The notes beneath the pieces were generated by a model. That model had not been told where the DNA came from. It worked only from the letters and a program-made list of their open reading frames with translations, and did no database searches. The position numbers and the translations under genes were made by a program. A stretch of 64,000 bases of DNA from Aotearoamyces nothofagi (taxonomy: Eukaryota > Ascomycota > Leotiomycetes > Leotiales > Tympanidaceae). Each line of letters begins with the position of its first letter. Position 1 is the first letter of the stretch. The stretch covers positions 1-64,000 of the forward strand of contig JADDTR010000037.1 in assembly GCA_015345905.1 (NCBI GenBank), in the 5' to 3' direction. Positions 3,836-55,500 of this stretch are shown piece after piece.

Positions 3836-5159
3836 TACAAGGTAACTTAAGTCGATTCTTAAAGAAGGTAAAAAGAGAGAAATCGAGGAGAGGAATTGAC
3901 TCTTATATATTCCTGACTTAGTATAGAGGTTACTACTATTCTTTGTTGTCAATAGATAGAGGCTTTCTTTATTGTTAATAGACAGAAGCTTTCTTTGTTG
4001 TCAATAGTATACAGCTTAGTATTGTAAAACCTTTTCTTTGTTTGATTACTGTCTAAAATAAGCAATTCACTAAAAGGAAACAATAGCTGCCTAAAACAGT
4101 AAATTGCTTTTTCTTGTCTATAAAGAGAGTCTTCTCCCCTGCTTCTACTCTCTCCTTCTTTTTCTTCAAGACCCTCTCCCTCTACCAAAGTAAGTACAGT
4201 AATGTATAACAGTAATATAGAGTGTCTAGATTTTAGCTGATCTAATAGTATTACAATTTACAATACCTCAGGTGAAAAAGTCATCTAAGAAGGTCAGCCT
4301 TCAAGACTAAGGTAAGTATACCCTCTATCCTCTCTCTTCTCTTCTCTCCCTCTATTACTTCAGACTATTAACCTTACATTATAGACACTTGTACTACTTT
4401 ATATATCCCTTTATACACCAAGGCAATTGTAAACCATTGGTAGTATAATATCACCAAGGCTATATAGGATTGAACCTATAAGGCCAACAAGCTCTACCTC
4501 TACTCAAGGCCTTCTAGAGTCTTGAACAACCCTTGCTCTATAAAGGTAGATAGTAAGTAATCCCCTATCTAATATATATAGTTACTAATCAAGAATAGCC
4601 TATACTCTACTTGAAATTAGATACTACTAAAAGGAGGTTGGATTCCTTCTGCCAAAATTGGCATTCTAGCACCTAGTTTATAAAATCACCTAGGATATAA
4701 GGATAGACGGCAGTCTGTAGTACTAGTCCTCTACTATCCTAGTACTCTAGAAGGCCAGTAAGGTATACCTGACCTTGTTCTTTGAGAGTAAGTTGAATCT
4801 CCCTACTAATTAATGATGAAATAACTAATGAATTCTAGCTTCCAATATATATACAATCTATACTAAGTATATCACTATCTAGAGCAAGGATATACAGCTG
4901 ATAAAGTGGTTTTGTACCTCTGTAGTAGTCCAAGGAGTCTACAATTTGTAAATAAAAAAAATTTAACTGTAATCCTACTTTTGTAGTTATTAGTATAACA
5001 GTAACAGTAAACAGTAATACAATAACATCTGGAATTGTAGATATATTATACCTTTAAAATTCCTATATTTTCTAAACAGTAATACTCAACAGTAATACAA
5101 TGATATATAAAATCTTAAACTATTCCGATTTTAATATAAATAATCTAATAATACATTTA

Positions 5160-13757: not shown

Positions 13758-13940
13758 NNNNNNNNNNNNNNNNNNNNNNNNNNNNNNNNNNNNNNNNNNN
13801 NNNNNNNNNNNNNNNNNNNAACATCCAAGCTTGCCCTCTTCACTCGCAAGAATTGAATCCGCGACATCGAACGTCGCCTGTATACACCACATCGCCGCAC
13901 CGCTCGACATCTGCATCCCCGTCGCCCGTCGCCCCTTTTA

Positions 13941-22429: not shown

Positions 22430-25400
22430 TTACAACTGCTCGATGCCCACAATCAACTGGTCCAGTTCGTCTACACCGCCCACTAACACGCCGCCTATAA
22501 TCCTCGACAAGCCCGTTAGTTTCTTCTGCCGAGCATCCTCCTCCATCTCCCGCGACTTAATCGCCGCCGTCTCAAGTACCGGCATCGGAACCCTCGCTAA
22601 CCTAGCAACATTCAAGCCATACGAGCGGTGGGCAACACCCTCAACGACTTGAAATAGGAAGGTGATATCTTCCTCGCCATTACCACCTTCTTCAGTGAAG
22701 CCCATGTATACGTTCCGCAGCTCACTGTGTTCAAATCCACGCGCAACGCTAGCGAGAGTTTGGTAATGCGTGATGAATAGGGTGAGGCATTTCACTTCTT
22801 GCACCACATGTTCGAGGACAGCTTGGGCGATTGCCACTCCATCATGCGTGCTAGTACCGCGGCCGAGCTCATCTAGAATTACGAGAGAGCGAGGAGTAGC
22901 TTGTTTTAAGATGTCAGACGTTTCGGAGAGCTCGACCATGAATGTAGACTCGCCAGCCATCATGTTGTCAAAGGCTCCCATCCGTGTGAACACTGCGTCA
23001 AGCATCCCTAAGCGTGCAGATTCAGCTGGGACATAAGAGCCAATTTGTGCCATGATGCAGATTAGGGCAACATGTCTCACGTAACTAGATTTCCCGCCCA
23101 TATTTGGACCAGTGATAAGCAGTGTTCGTGTTCCATCAGATCGGAGGGAAGTGTTGTTGGGGACGTAACCGTCCAGGAGTAGTTTCTCAACCATAGGGTG
23201 TCGGCCACCTACGATGGTAATTTCGGTGCAGTCCGTATACTGGGGCTTCACATAACCGGGTTGGGACGCCACGGTCGCGAGCGAGAGGAGACAGTCGAGT
23301 GTTGCTAGGGAGGAGACACAGTCACGAAATGATTGATAGTATGTGGAAATTTCAGCAAGTAAGTTGGAGAACGCGGCGTCGCATGCCGCGGCGAGAGCCT
23401 CTTTATGCTGATCGCGCTCGCGGATCATTCGAATCACTTCGGGCGTGTGGAAACGGGAGACCTTTTTGGTGCCGCTAACCTTGGCCCATGAAGCAGGAAC
23501 GTGCTTAAGGTCATTATTTGACACTTCGATCAGATACTCAATACCAGCAACTGTTACATAGGTGATGTTTTTCTTGCGAATCTTCTCTGCAGCAATGGGA
23601 CGATGAGCTTCGAGATCTTGCTCAACAGAGGCGATGCCTAGTTTATGGTCACTTATATCTTCGGTCTCTTCATTTTCACGGAAGAAAGCATATTTATCAT
23701 TAGATCTGGCGGCTTGGAGATTGATTTTGTCGAGGAAACCAACCACGCTTTCGCCAATGGTTGGTAGTGCTGCCACGGCTTCGTTCAAAAGAGATGATCC
23801 GAAGCCGGCGTCCGAGGGCGATTTCACCAAGGCGAATTCGTTCGCTATTTGCTGCATTGTTTGCAGGACGGTGAGCAGTTCTGGGCGGGTACATTTGCCG
23901 TAGTAGATACGGATAAGACTTCGTTCGAGATCTGATTTAACTTTCATCAATAAAGACTTAAGCTTATCAACTTGCATGGTCTGGTTGCTTTCTTTGAGCT
24001 CTTCGACTGCTGCTACACGTTCTTCTAGCTTTTCCTTGTCAATCAGCGGCCTGCCGACCCATTTGCGAAGCAGTCTTTGCCCGAATCTTGTCTGAGTCTT
24101 GTCTAGCGACCAAAAAAGGCTGCCTTTCTCTGATTGGTCTGTCTGATTGTGATATAACTCAAGACTAGTGAGAGTGTTTCCATTGAGTAGCATGTGTGAC
24201 CGAGCACTGAATGATTGGAAATACTTTGTTAAATCAAATACATGCTCAAGGCCATATTCTGTCATGTGAGTGATCATCGCTGATAGACAGATAGTGACAG
24301 GTTCAGAGAGCTTGAGCACCCTATCAAGAAGATTGCTAGCTCGCTCGTCGTCCGTGTTTGTATGCGCTTTCATCTTATCAGCGTAGAACTGAGCAACATG
24401 GGAGTAGCTTTGGGCTGCCATTGTCTTCGACTTTTCAACGCGTTCAATGCGAATTTTGTCGCCAAATATATTTGTGCTGCTGCCAGAAAGGTGCTGGACC
24501 AACTTCTCGGTTGCCTTGGTAAGTTCTCCAACAATTAAGAATTCGCAAGGTGATATATGTAATAATCGTGTCTCGATTTCACTTCTCATAAAACCATCCT
24601 CGAAGTTGTCATATATCACATCCCCAGTGCCCGGCTGAACCGCTAATATGCCTACATCAACCTTTTCATCTGTTCCTGACCCTTTAGGATTAGTCTCTGT
24701 TATGCACAGCAAGTATCCTGTTGCTGGGGCTCCACCAGAAGGCGCATCCGTGGGCTGGCTCAGCCCTTCAATATCGTCAATGTATGTCCCCTTGGTATAT
24801 AGATTCGTGAGCTTCCGGATAAACGGTGTATTTCGATTATCGCCTGCCTTTTTCAGGGCTGCAGTTTCGATCTGGCGTACAACACCGACCTTGTGGCCCG
24901 CCATCACGAGACGTTTTGCGTGAACCGGAAGTCGAAATACTGGTATGCTAGCAGTAGCAAACCGGTCAAGATGTGCTTCGGAAGGATCTGGCTAGAATAT
25001 CAGCCGCTATTTATGGTCTAATAATGATTGTACTTACGCTCATCATATCTGAACTTTCCAGGTATGCACACAATGCCAAGCTCTTTTGCAGCTATTCTAG
25101 CATCTTCGCCAAAGAACTTAAATTTATAGCCCACTTCAACGATTAAGATAGCATCTAAATGCTTCCGTTTAATTTCCAACATTTGAAGCTCCATTGGTGT
25201 GAGTTTTCCGGTCTTTGCTCCCTTCCGCTTTCCCTTCGGGGGTGGCGGCGTCTCATCTTCTACATCCTCCCCTTCTGCATCTTCTCCGTCCAGCTGCGCT
25301 GTCTCTTCGTCTATTTGCCAATTCCTCCTCTTGATCTGCGCTATGCTGTCAGGATGGCCGAGCTTCTTCACAAACTTGTGATGTAGTCTTTCCTTCTGCC

Positions 25401-25881
25401 TTCTCACTGTCTCGTCATCTTGTTCGTCGTCGTCTGTAGGTGGCAAGGTTTGGCTCGAGCCATTGTAGAGATAGTGGTCGGTTCGATGCGATATTTTCGA
25501 CTTCTTTGCTGCCATACATTGATTTGTTTCACTGCGGGCTTTGCGTAGTGAGTTCTCCGAGAAGAAGGTACTCTGTTCGTCATCAGCCTTTCTTCGTTGG
25601 CTGGGCCGCTCTAGATCGGCATTCGCAGCTTCTGCATCTTCTCCGAGCGGTCTCTTCAAATTAGATGTCGAGTCCCCCTTTGGTTCGTCCTCTTCATCTT
25701 CACTCTCAACATCGTAGATGTTGCCCAAGCCATTGGAACCACCACGCGCCTGATTCGCTACCGGAGGGGATTGGGGAGAAGGTTTTTGAGAAGAGGCACT
25801 AAATCCATTGACGGTCTTCGGCGTGAAAAAACTTGAAATCGATTGCTGCCCCTTCAACGTTGTAGCTTTGGTCGTGCCCAT
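22430..25881 (-). CDS. msh3: DNA mismatch repair protein MSH3
   Basis: MutS-beta subunit, partner of MSH2, recognising insertion/deletion loops. Exons 25038-25881 and 22430-24987 (reverse; 50-bp intron) give 1133 residues. QQSISSFF near residue 12 is a PCNA-interacting (PIP) box, followed by a disordered acidic linker. The MutS domain I then reads [31 protein letters not shown] and [15 protein letters not shown]. The ATPase has [11 protein letters not shown] (Walker A), [23 protein letters not shown] (Walker B and signature), and a conserved ITHY. The splice acceptor was set by the family string [12 protein letters not shown]. Complete and apparently intact. Confidence 0.95.
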
Positions 25882-26112
25882 TTTTACGTATGCAACGGCG
25901 TGTTGATGTCTGCTCCGGGAGACGCGATACGCGTTAAGTGGAACTGGGCCTGAGGCACGACGTCTTCTACATCGTTGTTCGTTTAGAGGACATGGTTACT
26001 TAAAAGTAATTGTACATTATGAATTTTAGCCAAATACGACAATTAATAATTATAATTTCAGACTACTCTCCTAGCAACTATAAGCTAAAGGTTCCACAAT
26101 TACTCTCTGTGT

Positions 26113-44290: not shown

Positions 44291-47200
44291 TTATGCAGCG
44301 GGTGCAGCTGTCAAATTCCCGCACACTCCTTTTCTCCCCAATCTCGCGCGCTCTAGCTTGGTATCTAGCCAGGCAATAACCTCTCGATACTTGCTTTGCT
44401 TGCGTCCAAGCACAGTTTTGAATGCTGAGACGGCAAGCCTGAGGCAGTGAAGTACATCATTAGCGATGATCAGATATGGGGAGTTCCATAACCGCGGGAC
44501 AACTCACAACTCGACCTGCACCTTTGACACAGTGCAACAATATCCCATGTCCTTCTTGTTCTTCCCCTTGCTCTTCATCAATATAAAGGCCAGATCCACT
44601 AGGTTCTCTATTGTTCCTGGTTTATCACCTATCAGCGCTATCCTTACCCAATTTACGGTTCACTCACTGATTACCAATTTCGCAGCAGGCTGTTTCTGTA
44701 ATGGCAAGCACTTTGCATACATCCACATCTTCGTTGCCGTCTCTGTGAAACTTTCGTGAATGTTTTTAATCACTGTCGGTAATGCGTTAAAAGAGGTGTC
44801 GAGGAACATCGCATGCGCCTGAATCTTAAACGTATCTGAATAGTGTCAAATTAGCCGCGCAATCAGTAACACCAGCAGAATTAAAAAAAATTGCCCGCAC
44901 TGCAAAGTCATGCTTGTGATTAAGAAAATAAAACAAAAGTATTGCACGTTGAATAGATAAGATCAAAAAAGAAAACATACAACAGCAGGTATTCGCTGGT
45001 GGTCACCCACCCAACTACTAATCTGCCGATTTCAAGCTTATGTATGGCAGAGCGGACGGGATGCCCAGTTCTCTTGAATCTATGGTCGTATGTGATATAC
45101 ACTTCGCGTATCTCCTTTCATATCTCTAGAAGATAACGACCTAACTTTCCCCGCTAAAAGAAATTGTACTTACTCAAGACCTTGCGTTGGAACGTCTTCC
45201 CGGGAACCTTAGAGTATTCCACGGTTAATGAATCCGCGATCGCTATTAATGTTAGATATGGCAATAGCCTGTCAACGCATATACAAGTGCTTACCCATGT
45301 CCTGCCTTCGGTCAAGGTCCTTGGTGATATTGAGGGAGCGCGTATCAATTAAACTTCCGCAGTAGGGGAAATTTTGATTTCCTACCAGCCTTTGCACTTT
45401 GCTGCCATTGACTGATGCCTCAAAATTTACAAGAGTCTTGGTGGGATTGACGCTGACGCCGTATTCCGGTAGGCCATCATGCATGGTTTGCAGGAACATT
45501 TTTGCATGCGAGCGATCAGTGGTGATGAGCAAGAAGTCGTCGATGAGCCTAAGAAGCAAGCTGTCTCCGGCCTTCAAAAATGAGAGGTGGCGAGCTTCTA
45601 GGTCAGCATAGAAGTAGTTACACAGAATGGACGATAACACTGATCCTTGTGGAATGCCCTCTTTCTGTCGATAGAACTTCTTTCCAATTTTGACCATGTT
45701 ACTTCTAATGTGTTCGGATAGAAGGCAAAGAAGTTCATTCTTGCTTTTGAACTGATCGACGACATTTTCCACGAAGACAGTATTCTTCTTTCCGACCGCA
45801 AGACTATTTTTCACGATCTCGTCAAACTTTTGAAGGTCATTTAGTGAGGTGGCATGTGAATTCCACTTCCGGATGGGCTTATTCTTTGGTTGGCCCTCGT
45901 CACAGACTTGATAACCTTCCCCAGCCTTGATCTCGGCATATTTAGATATACGATACTCAGATTGATGTGGTAAACTGGATATCAACTTAATGACGGCAGC
46001 TTGTGGGATGGTATCAAAAGCGGATTTGACGTCAACTTTAGCAAAGAATAGAGGCTTCGAATGGCCATCGTGGCTCTCACCAAAAGCCTTAAGCTTGTAG
46101 TACAAATCTCCCACGGAGAAAAGGGCAGAGCCAAGACGACCTGGCGCCAGTTTCTACATATATTAGCTCACGCCTCCAAATGTAGTGTTAGCATACCTTC
46201 TCATAAATGAGCATGTTATACACTGGTGCCAACACGGAGTTGATGCTGCTTCCCAATTGCTTTTTATACCCCTTTTTCACAGCTCTCCGACGGAGGTTCA
46301 TAATCGGTCTTACCCCGGTTTTTTTAGGAAGTAGCCGGACCTGACTAAATCCAAGGTTTCGAGCGTTCAGAATTTTCTGCGCAGTTTCGGTCTTGACTTC
46401 TTCAAACATTGAGAGCTTCAGTGAGGCTAAAGCAGGTTCGGCTATGGACCGCCAAACATCGTGTCTGAAAAAGAAAATCCTGTAGCTGTGAGCATTGGAC
46501 TCGGTAATGTGGAAATTGGCTCGGATGAGAGGGATTAGAAGTGAATCAAAGACATAGTACACAAATTCCAAAAATATCTCCAGGCGTTTATAGGCATCTG
46601 ATTGGGGCATCTTTGAGGCAACTGAGTTTTTTGGGGCTAGCCATGGGATGTTTTTGACCTGCAGGACATTAGCGACCATCTTCCATATGATAGCATATGC
46701 AATATCTCAACATGTCCAGTAGAGGTTAATCTACAAATGTATGCTTGAGAGCGCTATATACCTTCATTCCTTGGACTACCTCGTGCAGGGACAAGCTCTC
46801 AAACCTCCTAAGTTTGATAAATCTGTCAACATTCCGCATAAGTAAAGATTTGTTGTATTGTTGTTCTACGCCGATACCCCAGAATTCATTTGGAACTATC
46901 CTAGAGAGAACAGCGCGGCAGAATGCAGATACGTCTGCTGTAGCTGTAGCATGGTCCATCATCGAACATTTCCGCGGCTGTAGCTTCACAGTGCTCTCTC
47001 CTGAAGTGGCAGTGCCATTTGCAACTTCTATGGAGCCTTGTGTGCCAAATGCTGTCGTATCACCAGAGACACTTTGTTGACTTGTAACTTCTGAGTTTGC
47101 GGTATTCCGATAAGAGCCCTGATAACTTAGCATAAATACAGGCTCTACCAGAACTAGGTACTTACAGGGATTGGGCAATAATATCGCAGTATTTCAGTAT

Positions 47201-48730
47201 ATGGGCAGCGGCTGTGTAATGTTTGTAATTTTCGTGTCAATTCGATTGCGTCTCCTCTGAGTCTCTTTGGCACTTTGGCAGCTGTGCTTGTGCCATCGGG
47301 GGTTTTAACCCTGAAAACAGTATTGATCTCATCTTCCCTAAGGGTATAGTCTTTGAATGGCTGAACGGTTTCCCTACGGTCAACAGTAGACGTAAAAACG
47401 TTGTGCAGGCCAAACTGTCTAGGAAAAATATACATCATCACGTGAATAGTGTTTGCTTGGTCATTACGAGAGGGTCTGTCCATATGATCTCCCCATGTAG
47501 CTTCCCCGGAGCTGTTATTGCTCCTACAAGGCTTGTATGGTATGCGATTGAGAATATCTATCCGATCAGTTATATATAGACGAAAGGACTAGATTGACCT
47601 ACGGATATGGCGAAAGCCGAATCTAACGCTGCCTTCTGCATTGAGCGCTGCTCGCGCATATAGCATGCGGTTTCGAACAAAAATGATACTTGCAGGCGTA
47701 TGGATCGTTTCAGGTTGCTGTGGCTTAAGAACATTTGAACCCATAAGAAGCTTCCTATTGGAGGTCGAGGTTATCGTTTTGCACGTCTGCACTTGTCGAA
47801 ATGGTTGCAAGTCACCAAGAGGTTTGCCTATTCATTAATCAGTCGTGAAGGCAAACATAAATGATAAACGCCCACCGCTTAGCTGGCAATAATTTCCGTA
47901 ACCACTCTGGACGGGGACAAAGATACCACAGTCTAGGATCAAATCAATCATGGCTCTTTCGCTCTCCTTTCCCAAAAGCCCCAGTACCTGGGGCCACGGC
48001 GACGCCTTCATTTGGACAACATGATTGTTTTGGTAAGCGGAAACTACTCCGGGTATTACAGATGTTGGGTTTTCATCGGCATTAACTGACCAAGAGCTGA
48101 TACCTTTCTGAAACCCCTGGCAGAGAAGGTGCTGTACTCTATTACCAGACCTTGTAGCCTTACTAAACAAAAGCCAGATAGAAAAGTCGACAATCTGGAA
48201 ACGAAAGTCAGCGGATTCCTGAGGTGTCTCAAGGTGATGGGGTGGGGAGATAGCAGTAATGGCACAATAGGATATTTTATTGGCTTGTGAGCACAAACCT
48301 CTGATTGACAAGAGCCTACTCCCCCGAGGCCGCTTTCATTTGCTGAGTCGCCATTATCCAGACGTTGAGAGAAAGTGTCCCATTGCTTCAGGCGCTCCTC
48401 CCTAGCATGGCTCTCTTGCTCGAGAACACCAATAAGTGTCTGGTCGAGATGCCGAGAGAAGCTTATGTCATCAAGATTGTCACGATTATTTGCATCAAGA
48501 TGCCGATCGTGGTGGCCAATAGCTGCGATCTTCTTCCGCCGAATCTTGGAAGACTCAGGGAGCTTGGAGAACAGATACTCTCGCAGAGAGAGCACCTTCG
48601 GGTAATATTGGGAAAGCACAGAATGTCTTACTACGGCTTCTCTCCAATTCGTATCACTAGACGACTTTAATCTCTTGCCAGAGCTCTCGGAGTCACGTGC
48701 AGGTCTAGTACGTTTCCTCTTGCCAGCCAT
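44291..48730 (-). CDS. tert: Telomerase reverse transcriptase (TERT)
   Basis: Catalytic protein of telomerase; a host gene, not a mobile element. Eleven exons (reverse: 48299-48730, 47876-48194, 47603-47827, 47166-47557, 46762-47118, 46197-46658, 45295-46153, 45174-45242, 44668-44835, 44508-44607, 44291-44438) give 1176 residues. The N-terminus MAGKRKRTRP with HSVLSQYYPKVLSLREYL is typical. The RNA-binding domain has motif T (FHITESNAHSYRIFFFRHDVW). RVLL-like RLLPKKTGVRPIMNLRRR covers motifs 1-2. Motif A is KVDVKSAFD (Asp 770), motif B' EGIPQGSVLS, motif C LRLIDDFLL (Asp 934/935), motif D GVSVNPTKTLVNFE, and the thumb FKTVLGRKQSKYREVI. In-frame ATGs at 48739 and 48748 are alternative starts. 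Intron 8 (44836-45173) is 338 bp against 43-104 for the others and contains a 5S rRNA gene. Confidence 0.94.
44965..44975 (-). terminator. RNA polymerase III T-run after the 5S gene
   Basis: On the reverse strand the 5S sequence is followed by TTTTCTTTTTT, the usual pol III termination signal. Confidence 0.85.
44975..45093 (-). rRNA. 5S ribosomal RNA gene inside a TERT intron
   Basis: On the reverse strand, 119 nt begin ACATACGACCATAG and end CTGTTGTATGT. The conserved strings CATCCCGTCCGCTC and TAGTAGTTGGGTGGGTGACC are followed by ACCAGCGAAT. These match filamentous-ascomycete 5S rRNA without length change. ACATAC pairs with GTATGT (helix I). GATTCAAG pairs with CTTGAAATC, replacing the usual GTGTGG/CCACAC, and GCAG pairs with CTGC in the 3' arm. 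Differences from the usual sequence thus fall in pairs, suggesting selection on structure. The internal pol III promoter (box A around ATAAGC, box C around GGTGGGTGACC) is present, and a T-run follows. Confidence 0.93.
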
Positions 48731-49591
48731 ATCGGACATTGTGCTCATATCAACGCTCAAAGAGTTCAGATCAGATTGCCCAGTCGGGAAAGCGGGTCGT
48801 GGCTGCGTCAAGGCGGTGTTGGGCTTGTATACATGACCATTCCAAGACCCCAACAATCACGGGTGTGAATATGGCTCGGAGTGGGCTTGGCGTCAAAGAC
48901 ACTCAGGACAATTCAAATGCTCATAACGCAGAGCAGAAGCACACCCGTCCAGGACTCTTTAGACGACGCGAAATAACAAAAGCAACCGGCCGGGAATCAC
49001 GTGGGACCTGGAAACGCCCTTTCTGAAGATGCCATTTCGAAGATCAACATACCTTTAACGATCATCATAAATATCGGCGCTCGACGCGACTCGACATGGG
49101 GCTTGATTCGCGAGAAGCGATAACCGAGCTTCTAACGGCCTACGGCCACGCCAAGCTCACGCTCGGCCATTGGTGTTCCAGTAATAGAACAAAACTTGAA
49201 AAGTAGCGCGGAAGACGAGAGATCAAGCGCTGCCTGCCGCGACGGCGAATACACCGGTATTCAACAGCTTCACCTCCTCTTGCCCAGCTCAACGGAGCCC
49301 CCTCGTTCTACGCAATTGGCATCTCTCCGTCAACGACAACCGCTGTTCTCGCCATTGCCACTTCATCCAGCGCGAGGCCTGTCGATATCGTCGTGCAGTC
49401 AGGCATCCACCATCGCAATTGGGCCGTGTACAGCATCACGTAGCTTGCAGGGGAAGGCACCGCCTTCTCAAACACTCCTCAACCACTCATATTGCAGTAG
49501 TGCTTCGCAATCGTGGCACGCTCAGACAACGGCAGGATATCGATGAATTGTCACTTTTGCACCTCCGTATGGCCACAGATGTCCAGACACG
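48731..49591. other. Divergent promoter region, TERT and RhoGEF
   Basis: 860 bp between head-to-head genes. Several short ORFs precede the RhoGEF start (one from about 49096); no independent gene is supported. Confidence 0.5.
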
Positions 49592-52500
49592 ATGGACGCA
49601 GGAATGAACACCGTCTATCCTAGACGCCCACCGCCTCACTCCTCTGAAGACGACGACCACATCACAATATACGACTCTCCCTCACTTCCTGACTTTGGTG
49701 CAACGCCGCCTCAAGTACCTCCGAAGATCTCAGTGCAGACCACCAATGTGCAAGCTGCAGGGTTGAATGGATATGTTGACATTGGTGCGACCGCTGGTGG
49801 AGATCCAGACGATTTTTACAGAGAATACCGCCGTTTACCATCCAACAACAACACCAGTTATAAGGATCTGAATATGACGAACGGGACGATGCTGCCAGTG
49901 CCTGCATCTCGGCAACCTCCGTCCTCTCTGCGATCAAATGGAAATGGCACAACCCCGAAGCATCCTGCGATATCGTCGCCGCGCAATGGCGTACAGCCTT
50001 CGTACCGTTCCGCGTCCGCGCCCGTTGATTCGAGAATGGCATTGAATACAACGAAAGCATCACCTTCATTCAATGGCCTACCAAAATCCAAGCAACCTAG
50101 TGTGAAGGACTTGCTAAAAAGGTTCGATCAGAATAACGAGCAAGCCACAACTCCTACAAGACGTCCTCCAAATCGATTACCAAAACCCGACAGTGGGGTT
50201 CCAGGCAATCCTGGATATCTTAGGGCTCGTGCTGCCATGGATAATCGGCCATTGGCTGGTACATCCAAAGCTGGACAGATGACAAGGGATCAGGGCAGAG
50301 GAAAAGTAAACGCCACCGATTCTAGAATAACACAAAGGAGCAGATTCGCAGTAGAAGATCAGCACTCGATTAATACCTTGTCAAGTATACCACGATCTAC
50401 TAGGCCTCGAAAACCCCTACCTGGGAATTCCCAAGCCTCACAATCGATGACAAACCTTGCACCCACCTCTCCTCCGACCCCTTCCTCTCTGATCACCTCC
50501 TCCCAAACAGCATCCACTCGAAAACCTCTATTCGGAGAAATACTTTCTGCAGACTCTGATATCACGGACCTGGGTTTTGGTATTCCAAATACTCGACCTC
50601 GCCGTACCTCGGACTCGAGCCTCCACCCTTCACGGTGGTCTCATCTTGACAGCCAACAGAATCACGATATCTCCCCATCTTCTCCAACAGCATGGTATCT
50701 AGGTGTTACTCCTACACTAGATGGCATAGATGCAAGTAGGGTACCGCAACCATCTCAGAAACACAGTCGCTCTCGCAGTGACATCACTGGTGTACATGGT
50801 AATTCCCGAAACGGATTTCAAAATGACTTTTTAAGTCTACAGACGGAATCCCCGAATGGATTTGTCTCTGTAGCTCAAAATACGCCCAAGGTATCAGGGA
50901 TGGACACTTCACGGAGATCGTCAAAGTCACGGTTACCCGTGAGCTCCAAACGTTCGAGCATTGAATCTAATTCTACTAGTCCGGTCATCACACCTACAGC
51001 TTCTCCTTCATCAATGAAAGCATCCATCTCCAATGGCGCAAAGCTACGAAAGCCTGATCCACAACCATGGGATCCAGCTAGTAGTGCAACGACACCTACC
51101 CACAGGTCTCCAGGACATCGAGTTAATAGTCCAGCAAAGATATCCACGAATAATACTAGTCTAAAAGCCTACATCTCTAATCCTCTTCCAAAGACCTCAC
51201 CTCCTTTGCGAAGCTCTCGCCCAAGACAACCTATTTCCACAGCCATGAATACAAGTTCAAAAGAGACAGCGACTCTTACAGCTAGCTCTTCTCAGTATCA
51301 AAATGGTGTCAAAATCCCTCGAAACGGGGTTACTGAGGGGAAGATGATTAGCAGAACTACAGCTAGCCCAATAGATTATGCAGCACGACGAGCGCGGATA
51401 CAAAAGGCATATTCTAAGACGATCCAAGAAAGTGAGCAAAAGGAGCTACAGGAGGCAGAGTTACGCCGATTAGCTCTAGAAGAAACGAAGAAGTCGACCA
51501 TAAGGCCGGAAAATCTCACTTCTGACGGCACACACCTTGATATTTCAACTTCAATCAATCCGGTAAAGCACGCTTTGGAGCCCAGACTGATTGTAAACAC
51601 GTCGTTCCTGACTCCTGGTCAAGGGCACGCAGGTGGGCGTGGCAATAGAGACGCCGAAGGTCTAGACTCGCCCACTCTAGGTATGCCAGGCAGCTTTCCG
51701 GATGCAGATTATTTTCCTACTTCTGCATTATCGAATACGACAGCGACAACCGATTTTGATAACGAGACTCAAACAGAAGCTCCTCAGCCAAACCGACAGA
51801 TACCACTTACGTACCAGACCGCCTCTAGCTCCTCGAATGAACTTATCCAGAACCCTGAAGGCTCTATCACAAGCTCTATGCACGCAAATAACGATAATGA
51901 ATCCATAAAAATCATTCTCGACACCAGCTCGATTGATGAATCGCCAAGAGGAAATATGGATGAAGATGTCTGGAAGTCTGTAGAGCGTTCCTCATGTAGG
52001 ACTGATGTGAGAGACAATTGTGTTACAGATTGCGCAACTGACGGATCTGAATCATCACTGAAGTTTGATGGCTCTGAAGCCTTGTCCACCTTAGACGAGT
52101 CTATGCGAAAACCCCACAATAGTGACCTTGATTTCATCCGCGACCAGAGCAGACGTCTCGACAACATCACGAAATCCTTGCCGCAGTATAATGACGAATT
52201 GCGATTATACAGGTCGGACGCACCTGGGGAAAGTACTTCTCCGAGGCATCCTCATCTGGACCCGGTTTCCAAGTGGAATCCAAGCGCAGTTTATACTCAT
52301 ACACCATCTATACAGCAGCCGCCGCTTGACACGACTCTTAATCCGCCGTACCCACCCGAGGCAGATGCTCGTTCAGACTTCTTGGGGACGCCTGTAACTG
52401 AGATTGACTATGATAGTTCTGACGGCATTGGAGATGGTTCAGTTAACGGCTATGGCGAAGCACGCCTTGCAGAGCCTTCAAGGACATACTCGAGATCGCA

Positions 52501-55500
52501 TCGAGGAAGTCAGCAATCCATTTGGACGGACTATACATTAAATAGTCAAGATACAGTATCCTTACAACATAAGCTATCCCAGCTTCCATTGTCACCAATC
52601 CCAGATGAGGGCCCGCCTCCGCCTCCAAAGGAGAGCTCGACGTCCCAAAACCCCGACGTTCCCCCAAAGTCTCCTTCATACAGTCCTCAGCCATCACCTC
52701 CATGTACTGGGGAATCACTCCAGATTGCAAGTCTGAGAAACGCCCAGTATTCTGAGTATCCTGTTGGCTTCGAATCTCATGACTCTAATGCTAGTACACC
52801 GTCTTTTCAAAATAATTCAGTCGTACCAGCTGTGCCTAATCATTCTCCACCGCCACCGCCACTGCAAACACCCGTTGACATCTCACTCATTACCAGTCGC
52901 TCGACACCACCAGCAAGCCTTTATAATCGACGTCCGCCTTCCAGCATCTATCGATCAAGCCACAGGGACTCAGAATCAAGACGTGCGAGTGGAGAAGACA
53001 TCTATTCAACTCGACCCTCAATATCCACGCCCAGATCTAGCTCTCAGATTTCTGTAGATGGTGATCCCGCAGGTAGTCGTACTTCTTTTAGCGAGCAGTC
53101 TAAATTAGACGTAGACGAAAACAAGGAAAATCAAGCAGCTGCAGCAAAGGTGAAAAGCAAACTCCGGCATCGACAGATGACTATCAAAGAGCTCATCGAT
53201 ACTGAGTCAGTGTACTTGAAGGACATGAATGTTGTCGAGGAGATATATAAGGGCACTGCTGAAGCTTGCCCAAAACTGGAACCTGGTGATATTACAACCA
53301 TATTCAGAAACACTGATCAAGTCGTTGCATTCTCGACTAGGTTCCTTGACGACCTTAAGGCTGCAAGCTCGAGCGTTTACTCTCCGCGCTCTCAAAAGTC
53401 AAGACAGAGTCGTGTAACCAATGCATCAACCTCGACAGACAGTGATGAAAGGTTCTCCGCGACTAGTACCGAGGAGAGTGACTGGGCAAAAGATCAAAAA
53501 ACCTATGTCGGGGCAAACTTTGGACGAAACATCAAAGAGATGCAAGCCGTATATGCAGACTACCTGAAAAATAGCGAGCAGGCAAGCGTTCGCCTACAGA
53601 CCCTTCAGAATGATCCTGCAGTGAAAGTTTGGCTTGGAGAATGCAACCTTGTAGCGAAAGATCTAACTGCTGCTTGGGACCTCGATGCTTTGTTGGTAAA
53701 GCCAGTTCAGCGAATCACACGGTATCAGCTTCTTCTAAACTCGATTCGCGATGACACTCCGGCCACTCACCCAGATTACGAGGCCTTATGCAGTACTTGC
53801 CTAGATATCACAGGGCTACTCACAAGCATTGATGAATTAAAGAAACGTATGGATACTGTTAGTAAGATTGTCAATCGGAAGCGCAAAGAGTCTGATGTGC
53901 GCGCTAATTTGACGAAAAATGCTATTGCACGTGCATTCGTTCGTCGTGACAAAGGGGACAAAGGGGACAGAGTGCCACCCGCAGGCTCGCATCGGCAAGA
54001 TGACGATGAAACGTACCGCAAGTTGCATGAGAAGTTCAGTGAAGACTATCTACATTTACAAGTGGTCTACCGCGATGTTCAATACTATACTCGACAAGTC
54101 AGCTCATATGTCGCGGACTTCCTGGTCTTTCTATCTAGCATTGAATTACTAGTAAGAATATCTCCGAGCCAGCACGCAGAGTTGGACAGTAAGTGGACAC
54201 GATTCAATATGTCAATGCGTAGTATGGGAACTATCGCCTTGGAAGATCATCTCTCAGGCGTACGGAAGCAAGTTATAGAGCCATTTGAGCAAGCCATCAA
54301 ACTTTACGGTCCGCCTAACCAGGCCATGAACAAGCGCAATAAGCGACGCATCGACTACGAAAAGTCGCTCCTCCTCAAGAGTCAGAATAAGAAGGTAGAC
54401 GACAAGTTAGCAGAAGCTGCTGAGCAATATGAGGCTCTCAACGAAACGTTAAAGCATGAACTCCCTAAGCTTACTTCACTGACCGACAAACTTGCGCGCA
54501 TGTGCTTAGTTCGGTTCATCGATATCCAGGTGCAATGGTTTGCTATATGGCAGGAAAAGGTCAGAACTGTACTTGAAGAAAGCCAACTACCAAGAGACAT
54601 TCCGGATATCGTTGATATGTTTAATCGAGATTTCCGATATCAAGATGAACGAGCCTCAGAACTTTCTATTCTAAATTTATCGAAAGACAATAGACTTAGT
54701 CAATCTACTACAAAGGAGTCTATAAGAGAAGATAACGCGTCGATGAAGACAAGGTCCCAGCCGCCCACGATAAGCCGCTCCAGAGGCTTATCAACCAACA
54801 GTGAGCATTCACCAAGCCTCCCTACGCCAATATTTGTCAAGAGACACAGTGAGAATTCACCAAGCCTTCCAACGCCGGATTTTGCGAAGAGACACAGTGG
54901 TCAATTCACGTTCTCCCCGATCATGGCCAGCGGTCCTGGTCTGCCTCAGTTCTCGTCGCGCGACTTCTCTCTTGAGAATGGGCACTCACGGGCTGGTTCC
55001 GGCTCTCCAGCAACACCCGATATATCAAGCAGTTCCAAGCCATATAATCCGAGACCAAGCACTGGTCGCAGTTACGACTCAGGGGGCTTGTCACGTCGAA
55101 GTGTGGAGTCCGGTGAAGTCTCAAGATCCCAGCCTGCGTCAGCATACCCTACGTCACACAGTTTTGTCGATGGACCGCCTGCGTTTTCTCGTCCATTCTC
55201 TGGTCTGTTCCATTCAGCTATGCCTGTACCTGATGATCCAGATGATAGTCGAAGATCCTCCCGCACATCAACTCGAGACCGCGAACAATCGAGCGATTAC
55301 AATGTCTTGTACCTAGCTGCAAGTCTCTTCGAATTCAATATCGGCACCACAAAATCAGAAGCCGGTTACCCCTATCTGTCGTATCAGGCAGGAGAGGTAA
55401 GTGCAGCCAGATCTCACCCTCAGCCATCCTTTACTGAGCCTTCCTAGATATTTGACGTTATCGGCGAAAAGGGTGAGATCTGGCTTGCCAAAAATCAAGA

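Follow-up and report, generated by a model that had tools for sequence, protein, structure and literature searches.

Dispersed 5S rRNA genes are usually intergenic. Dispersed 5S genes are documented in filamentous ascomycetes and similar fungi (PMC2911113, PMC2441463, PMC4022394). Podospora anserina carries 87 5S genes, 72 of which are dispersed full-length copies (PMC2441463), and dispersed 5S genes number 116 in Yarrowia and 30 in Blastobotrys (PMC4022394). The locus described here lies in a stretch of 64,000 bases, hereafter called the window. As in those three fungi, it holds a single full-length 5S gene (the only one in the window) with T-runs of its own; it differs from the dispersed 5S systems in that the copy lies within an intron of a protein gene, TERT.

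Three other kinds of system bear a likeness to this locus. Pol III genes are known from the introns of pol II genes, and the nested gene here is likewise small, of pol III type, and codirectional with its host; however, it is a 5S gene rather than a tRNA gene or a SINE, and the host is TERT. P5SM, a mimic of 5S rRNA, occurs in the TFIIIA gene of plants. The present locus resembles P5SM in having a 5S-like structure on the sense strand of a protein-gene pre-mRNA, but its host is TERT and not TFIIIA, as judged by Pfam and PDB comparisons, and the element comprises a complete 5S gene followed by T-runs. Finally, 5S-derived SINEs (SINE3) share with it the occurrence of a 5S sequence at a new site. 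Among the matches listed in a search of the open-licence literature, assessed by titles and the beginnings of abstracts, no report of a TERT intron carrying a 5S gene was recognized, which is weak evidence of absence.

Results

The exons flanking intron 8 belong to one TERT gene, whose relevant parts are the following.

44291 to 48748, minus strand: TERT coding span, 11 exons, 1,185 aa (exon model, Pfam, PDB telomerase alignment)
45174 to 45242, minus strand: TERT exon 8, the 5′ neighbor of the nested 5S gene (exon model)
44836 to 45173, minus strand: TERT intron 8, 338 nt, phase 1, with GTAAGT donor and TTCAG acceptor
44668 to 44835, minus strand: TERT exon 9, carrying the initial part of the C-terminal extension beyond the junction (exon model, Pfam, PDB alignment)

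In the exon model, TERT introns 1 to 10 measure 104, 48, 45, 47, 103, 43, 52, 338, 51, and 69 nt, respectively; intron 8 is the longest, at the predicted 338 nt, and the other nine span 43 to 104 nt. Pfam analysis identified Telomerase_RBD (PF12009; 3.9e-49), RVT_1 (PF00078; 2.1e-14), and TERT_C (PF21399; 1.1e-10, TERT residues 1038-1158), such that the RNA-binding, RT, and C-terminal domains of a single TERT protein were all found above the curated cut-offs. The TERT_C match begins seven residues ahead of the exon 8/9 junction. When a 404-aa query comprising the RT and C-terminal part of TERT was compared with PDB at a threshold of E 0.001, all 15 matches were named telomerase reverse transcriptase. 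Chain 7qxa_A, which we take to be a human telomerase chain, matched with an E-value of 1.3e-47 over residues 1-389 of the query, and the alignment ran co-linearly through the exon 8/9 junction. The alternative that the exons belong to two distinct genes was rejected on the exon model, the Pfam domains, and this co-linear alignment.

Other features of the window were also recorded. A 1,966-aa open frame (49547-55447, plus strand), of which the part at 52400-54600 carries RhoGEF and BAR domains (Pfam), forms a head-to-head pair with TERT, the two starts lying about 0.8 kb apart on opposite strands. A MutS-family mismatch repair gene (22430-25995, minus strand), MSH3-like by eye, lies about 18 kb from TERT; in its part at 22430-24988, MutS domains I, III, IV, and V scored above the Pfam cut-offs and domain II just below. 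There is also a gap, a run of 62 N at 13758-13819, and the window thus seems to derive from a draft assembly.

Three features were located in and around the 5S sequence of intron 8.

44974 to 45093, minus strand: 5S rRNA gene (RF00001, 79.1 bits, E 3.9e-15, model positions 1-120 of 120)
44965 to 44975, minus strand: pol III terminator-like sequence TTTTCTTTTTT, read from the sequence
45116 to 45123, minus strand: AT-rich ATATGAAA, positions -30 to -23 relative to the 5S, a weak TATA-like candidate and no clear TATA

When all 64,000 bases were scanned with Rfam on both strands, one match reached the gathering level, namely RF00001 5S_rRNA, with a full-length score of 79.1 bits against a gathering cut-off of 38 bits. 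The covariance check thus bore out the 5S identity proposed in the original prediction, although the length given there, 119 nt, was one short of the 120-nt Rfam match. With the threshold relaxed to E 5, five matches were listed, of which this one alone is 5S; the window thus showed no second 5S at that level. TERT and the 5S lie on the same (minus) strand, and of the 338 nt of intron 8, 80 nt precede the 5S, 120 nt make it up, and 138 nt follow; the exon model and the Rfam match therefore agree on the predicted same-strand placement, 80 nt from the donor, and a full-length 5S rRNA gene inside TERT intron 8 is confirmed. The pol III T-run that had been proposed was found as TTTTCTTTTTT at 44975-44965, and consists of TTTT at 44975-44972 and TTTTTT at 44970-44965.

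Whether the 5S copy is intact was assessed by comparison with other fungal 5S sequences. An exact-pattern search of public contigs yielded two comparison copies, both from a single record set whose title names a bacterial MAG: a full-length 5S on NYXK01000105.1 (L002), which at 69.2 bits scored below the 79.1 bits of the window copy, and a 5S cut by the contig end on NYXK01000238.1 (L001), with 43.9 bits. T-runs follow all three copies, and L001 and L002 also have a short T-run and then a longer one. In Neurospora, 5S genes require a TATA box near -29. An AT-rich stretch at -30 to -23 is present in both copies for which there is upstream sequence; it reads TTTAAATA in L002 and is weak in the window copy.

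Between the window 5S and L002, 13 of 120 sites differ, with no indels. Of the 34 base pairs of the 5S model, 28 are standard in both the window copy and L002, and the remaining six are non-standard in both. At pairs 18-61, 19-60, 21-58, and 69-108, both sides have changed relative to L002 with pairing kept, and at pair 20-59 one side has changed and still pairs. When 200,000 copies with 13 random substitutions each were simulated and the 28 standard pairs assessed in each, leaving aside the six that are non-standard, at least four double-changed, kept pairs arose in a single copy, and 409 copies had no broken pair. With two full copies compared, these pair changes point to a lineage of functional 5S genes. 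Because there is one full-length comparison and the changes may predate the insertion, they are no proof of activity at the TERT site. Folded alone, the 5S was moderately more stable than shuffled sequences (z -1.40; 22 of 200 shuffles did as well), and its computed pairing probabilities were 0.75-1.0 for helix I and 0.10-0.26 for helix II. Such folding lends modest support, and single-sequence results do not on their own favor the 5S structure; the case for that structure lies in the covariance match and the changed pairs.

These data bear on the alternative that the 5S is a dead relic, that is, an unexpressed pseudogene carried in the intron. Its 13 differences from L002 would be compatible with decay, as would the precedent that 15 of the 87 Podospora 5S genes are not counted as full-length (PMC2441463). 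However, relative to L002 no pair has been lost and no indel has arisen, the T-runs are present, and the covariance score exceeds that of L002. We regard a relic as quite improbable; judging from its T-runs and kept pairs, the window 5S looks like a working gene.

The contigs that supplied the comparison copies were also characterized. NYXK01000238.1 and NYXK01000105.1 belong to a record titled Deltaproteobacteria MAG CPC1, and yet carry fungal-type 5S genes. The L002 contig also carries a tRNA-Glu(ctc) gene with an intron at 4453-4547, about 320 bases from the 5S, and would thus fit a fungal origin. Given the fungal-type 5S genes and the intron-bearing tRNA-Glu, MAG CPC1 seems to include fungal contigs. 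On the L001 contig, positions ~400-450 resemble the middle of a 5S, about 500 bases from the 5S copy, and are perhaps a degenerate 5S relic (by eye). Scoring of 150 of 307 candidates in the MAG with the Rfam 5S model gave at least two matches: the L002 locus scored 69.2 bits, and a locus on contig C6 (L003), presumably a bacterial 5S, scored 83.6 bits; the cut copy L001 was not among the matches listed. A 587-aa query of the RT and C-terminal regions found no TERT relatives in the MAG. None were found in viral contigs either, where two stretches fit the peptide pattern and neither proved a relative by tblastn; the 5S pattern was likewise absent from the viral contigs. Among three other window proteins compared with the MAG, there was a MutS-type match of 36%, which may be bacterial, and an NFX1-type match of 49% over about 150 aa; the RhoGEF part of the window frame had no match. 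From these protein matches, the contaminating fungus would appear to be either not close or only partly present.

The splice signals of intron 8 were then compared with those of the other TERT introns. In addition to its donor and acceptor, intron 8 has a branch-like CTAAT with the A 16 nt from the intron end; a similar word, with the A 9-22 nt from the end, is found in 8 of the 9 other TERT introns, intron 4 being the one without. Intron 8 has ordinary-looking splice sites. Donor-like and acceptor-like sites are also present within the intron; no exon spanning the 5S was seen. If the intron were retained, translation would reach a stop codon after six codons. The idea that the entire intron forms an exceptionally stable structure was rejected, its folding being not unusually stable (z -0.17; 41 of 100 shuffles folded equally well).

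Two sequences resembling 5′ splice sites occur within the 5S itself.

44975 to 44980, minus strand: GTATGT, cryptic 5′ splice-site-like sequence at the 5S 3′ end (PWM 7.13)
45005 to 45010, minus strand: GTGGGT, second cryptic 5′ splice-site-like sequence in the 5S (PWM 7.13)

Scores were obtained with a donor PWM built from the other nine TERT introns, a thin model, in which the real intron 8 donor reached 6.76, below the 7.13 of both 5S sites. At or above this rounded 7.13 were 8 of the 226 GT sites in the TERT gene. One might suppose, then, that the 5S does passive harm to its host: its donor-like GUAUGU and GUGGGU, or a slowing of pol II by pol III/TFIIIC, would cause some TERT mRNA to be mis-spliced and decayed. 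Beyond the two sense-strand scores, this idea draws on the early stop in a retained intron 8 and on the sparseness of comparable sites in the window, where 177 sites on both strands scored at least 6.7, or 0.17 per 120 nt, a limit that was chosen after the scores had been seen. However, the PWM comes from only nine introns, whose own donors scored 6.5-8.11 by the matrix they had trained, with 7 of 9 above 7.13. The antisense 5S also holds a GTATGT, at 6.39, so that 5S orientation hardly discriminates. Moreover, in computed folds of a pre-mRNA fragment GUAUGU is largely base-paired, with an unpaired probability of 0.01-0.11 as against 0.48-0.82 for the more open real donor. The suggested interference of pol III activity or the T-run with TERT transcription or splicing finds no support in this analysis: a T-run ends transcription by pol III, not by pol II, so that this part of the idea is weak, and the intron 8 splice sites are ordinary in appearance. 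On balance, passive harm to TERT appears unlikely.

It is also conceivable that the 5S serves as a functional TERT splicing element, similar in principle to P5SM, the folded or L5/TFIIIA-bound 5S setting donor choice and coupling TERT output to 5S or ribosome supply. In one such scheme, the GUAUGU in the 5S 3′ strand, which scores about as well as the real donor, would be locked in helix I; folding or L5/TFIIIA binding would hide this donor and permit productive splicing of TERT, and upon shortage of 5S-binding proteins the inner donors would be used and TERT mRNA lost. The shared strand, the presence of two donor-like sites within a structured element, and the early stop upon retention are what such an element might exhibit. 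Against it stand the unremarkable stability of intron 8 (z -0.17) and the computed pre-mRNA fold, in which 5S helix I barely forms (~0.017) and GTATGT does not pair through it, so that masking by the native 5S fold is not borne out. Furthermore, L002 and L001 carry both donor-like sites, which accordingly belong to the 5S sequence itself and are not special to the TERT location. The case for a P5SM-like switch is not made by the present evidence; we consider a splicing function of the 5S highly improbable, and give the detailed donor-hiding scheme very little credence. If it were true, telomerase output would be linked to ribosome supply.

The flanks of the 5S were also inspected for traces of mobility. 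Within 44700-45300, no direct repeat of at least 8 nt flanks the 5S, shorter duplications remaining possible; the one direct repeat in this interval joins a site in exon 9 with a site in the intron. By eye, there was no SINE-type tail beside the 5S. A SINE or transposon origin of the copy was rejected on these two grounds.

Discussion

We favor, at a probability of roughly 80%, a dispersed 5S gene placed by chance, transcribed by pol III, spliced out of the TERT pre-mRNA, and having no role in telomerase. According to this reading, a dispersed 5S of a filamentous ascomycete-like fungus, a grouping judged from 5S and gene features, would by chance have landed within a short spliceosomal intron of TERT. 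An earlier, short intron 8 presumably preceded its arrival; no relative with the site empty was found. Pol III would transcribe the nested gene from its internal promoter and stop at the T-runs, whereas pol II would read through the 5S, and the spliceosome would remove all 338 nt as an ordinary intron. We infer this ordinary removal from the ordinary splice sites and the intact TERT frame. The nested 5S itself would probably contribute nothing to telomerase.

How readily chance would lead to such a placement was estimated from Podospora anserina. This species has 10,545 genes, 1.27 introns per gene with a mean of 79 nt, and a genome of 35.5-36 Mb (PMC2441463). On these figures, introns make up about 3% of the genome, and random placement would put about 2.6 of the 87 5S copies in introns. 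For the TERT introns specifically, the same figures give about 0.16% when the target is taken as 562 nt with a further 80 nt assumed for intron 8 in its original state. This estimate is a proxy from another species; it treats placement as random and neutral and leaves out selection against insertions into genes. In addition, TERT was singled out as host afterwards, from some ten thousand genes, and the same-strand orientation is an even chance.

The TERT-nested 5S is a further case of a pol III gene within a host intron, and offers a natural example in which the host is the gene for the telomerase protein and the intronic 5S rRNA gene runs in the same direction. Should TERT be spliced normally, this would mean that the splicing machinery of fungi can accommodate a structured element of 120 nt that carries two donor-like sequences. 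The importance of the finding would be much greater if related species keep the 5S in intron 8, or if TERT splicing responds to the 5S.
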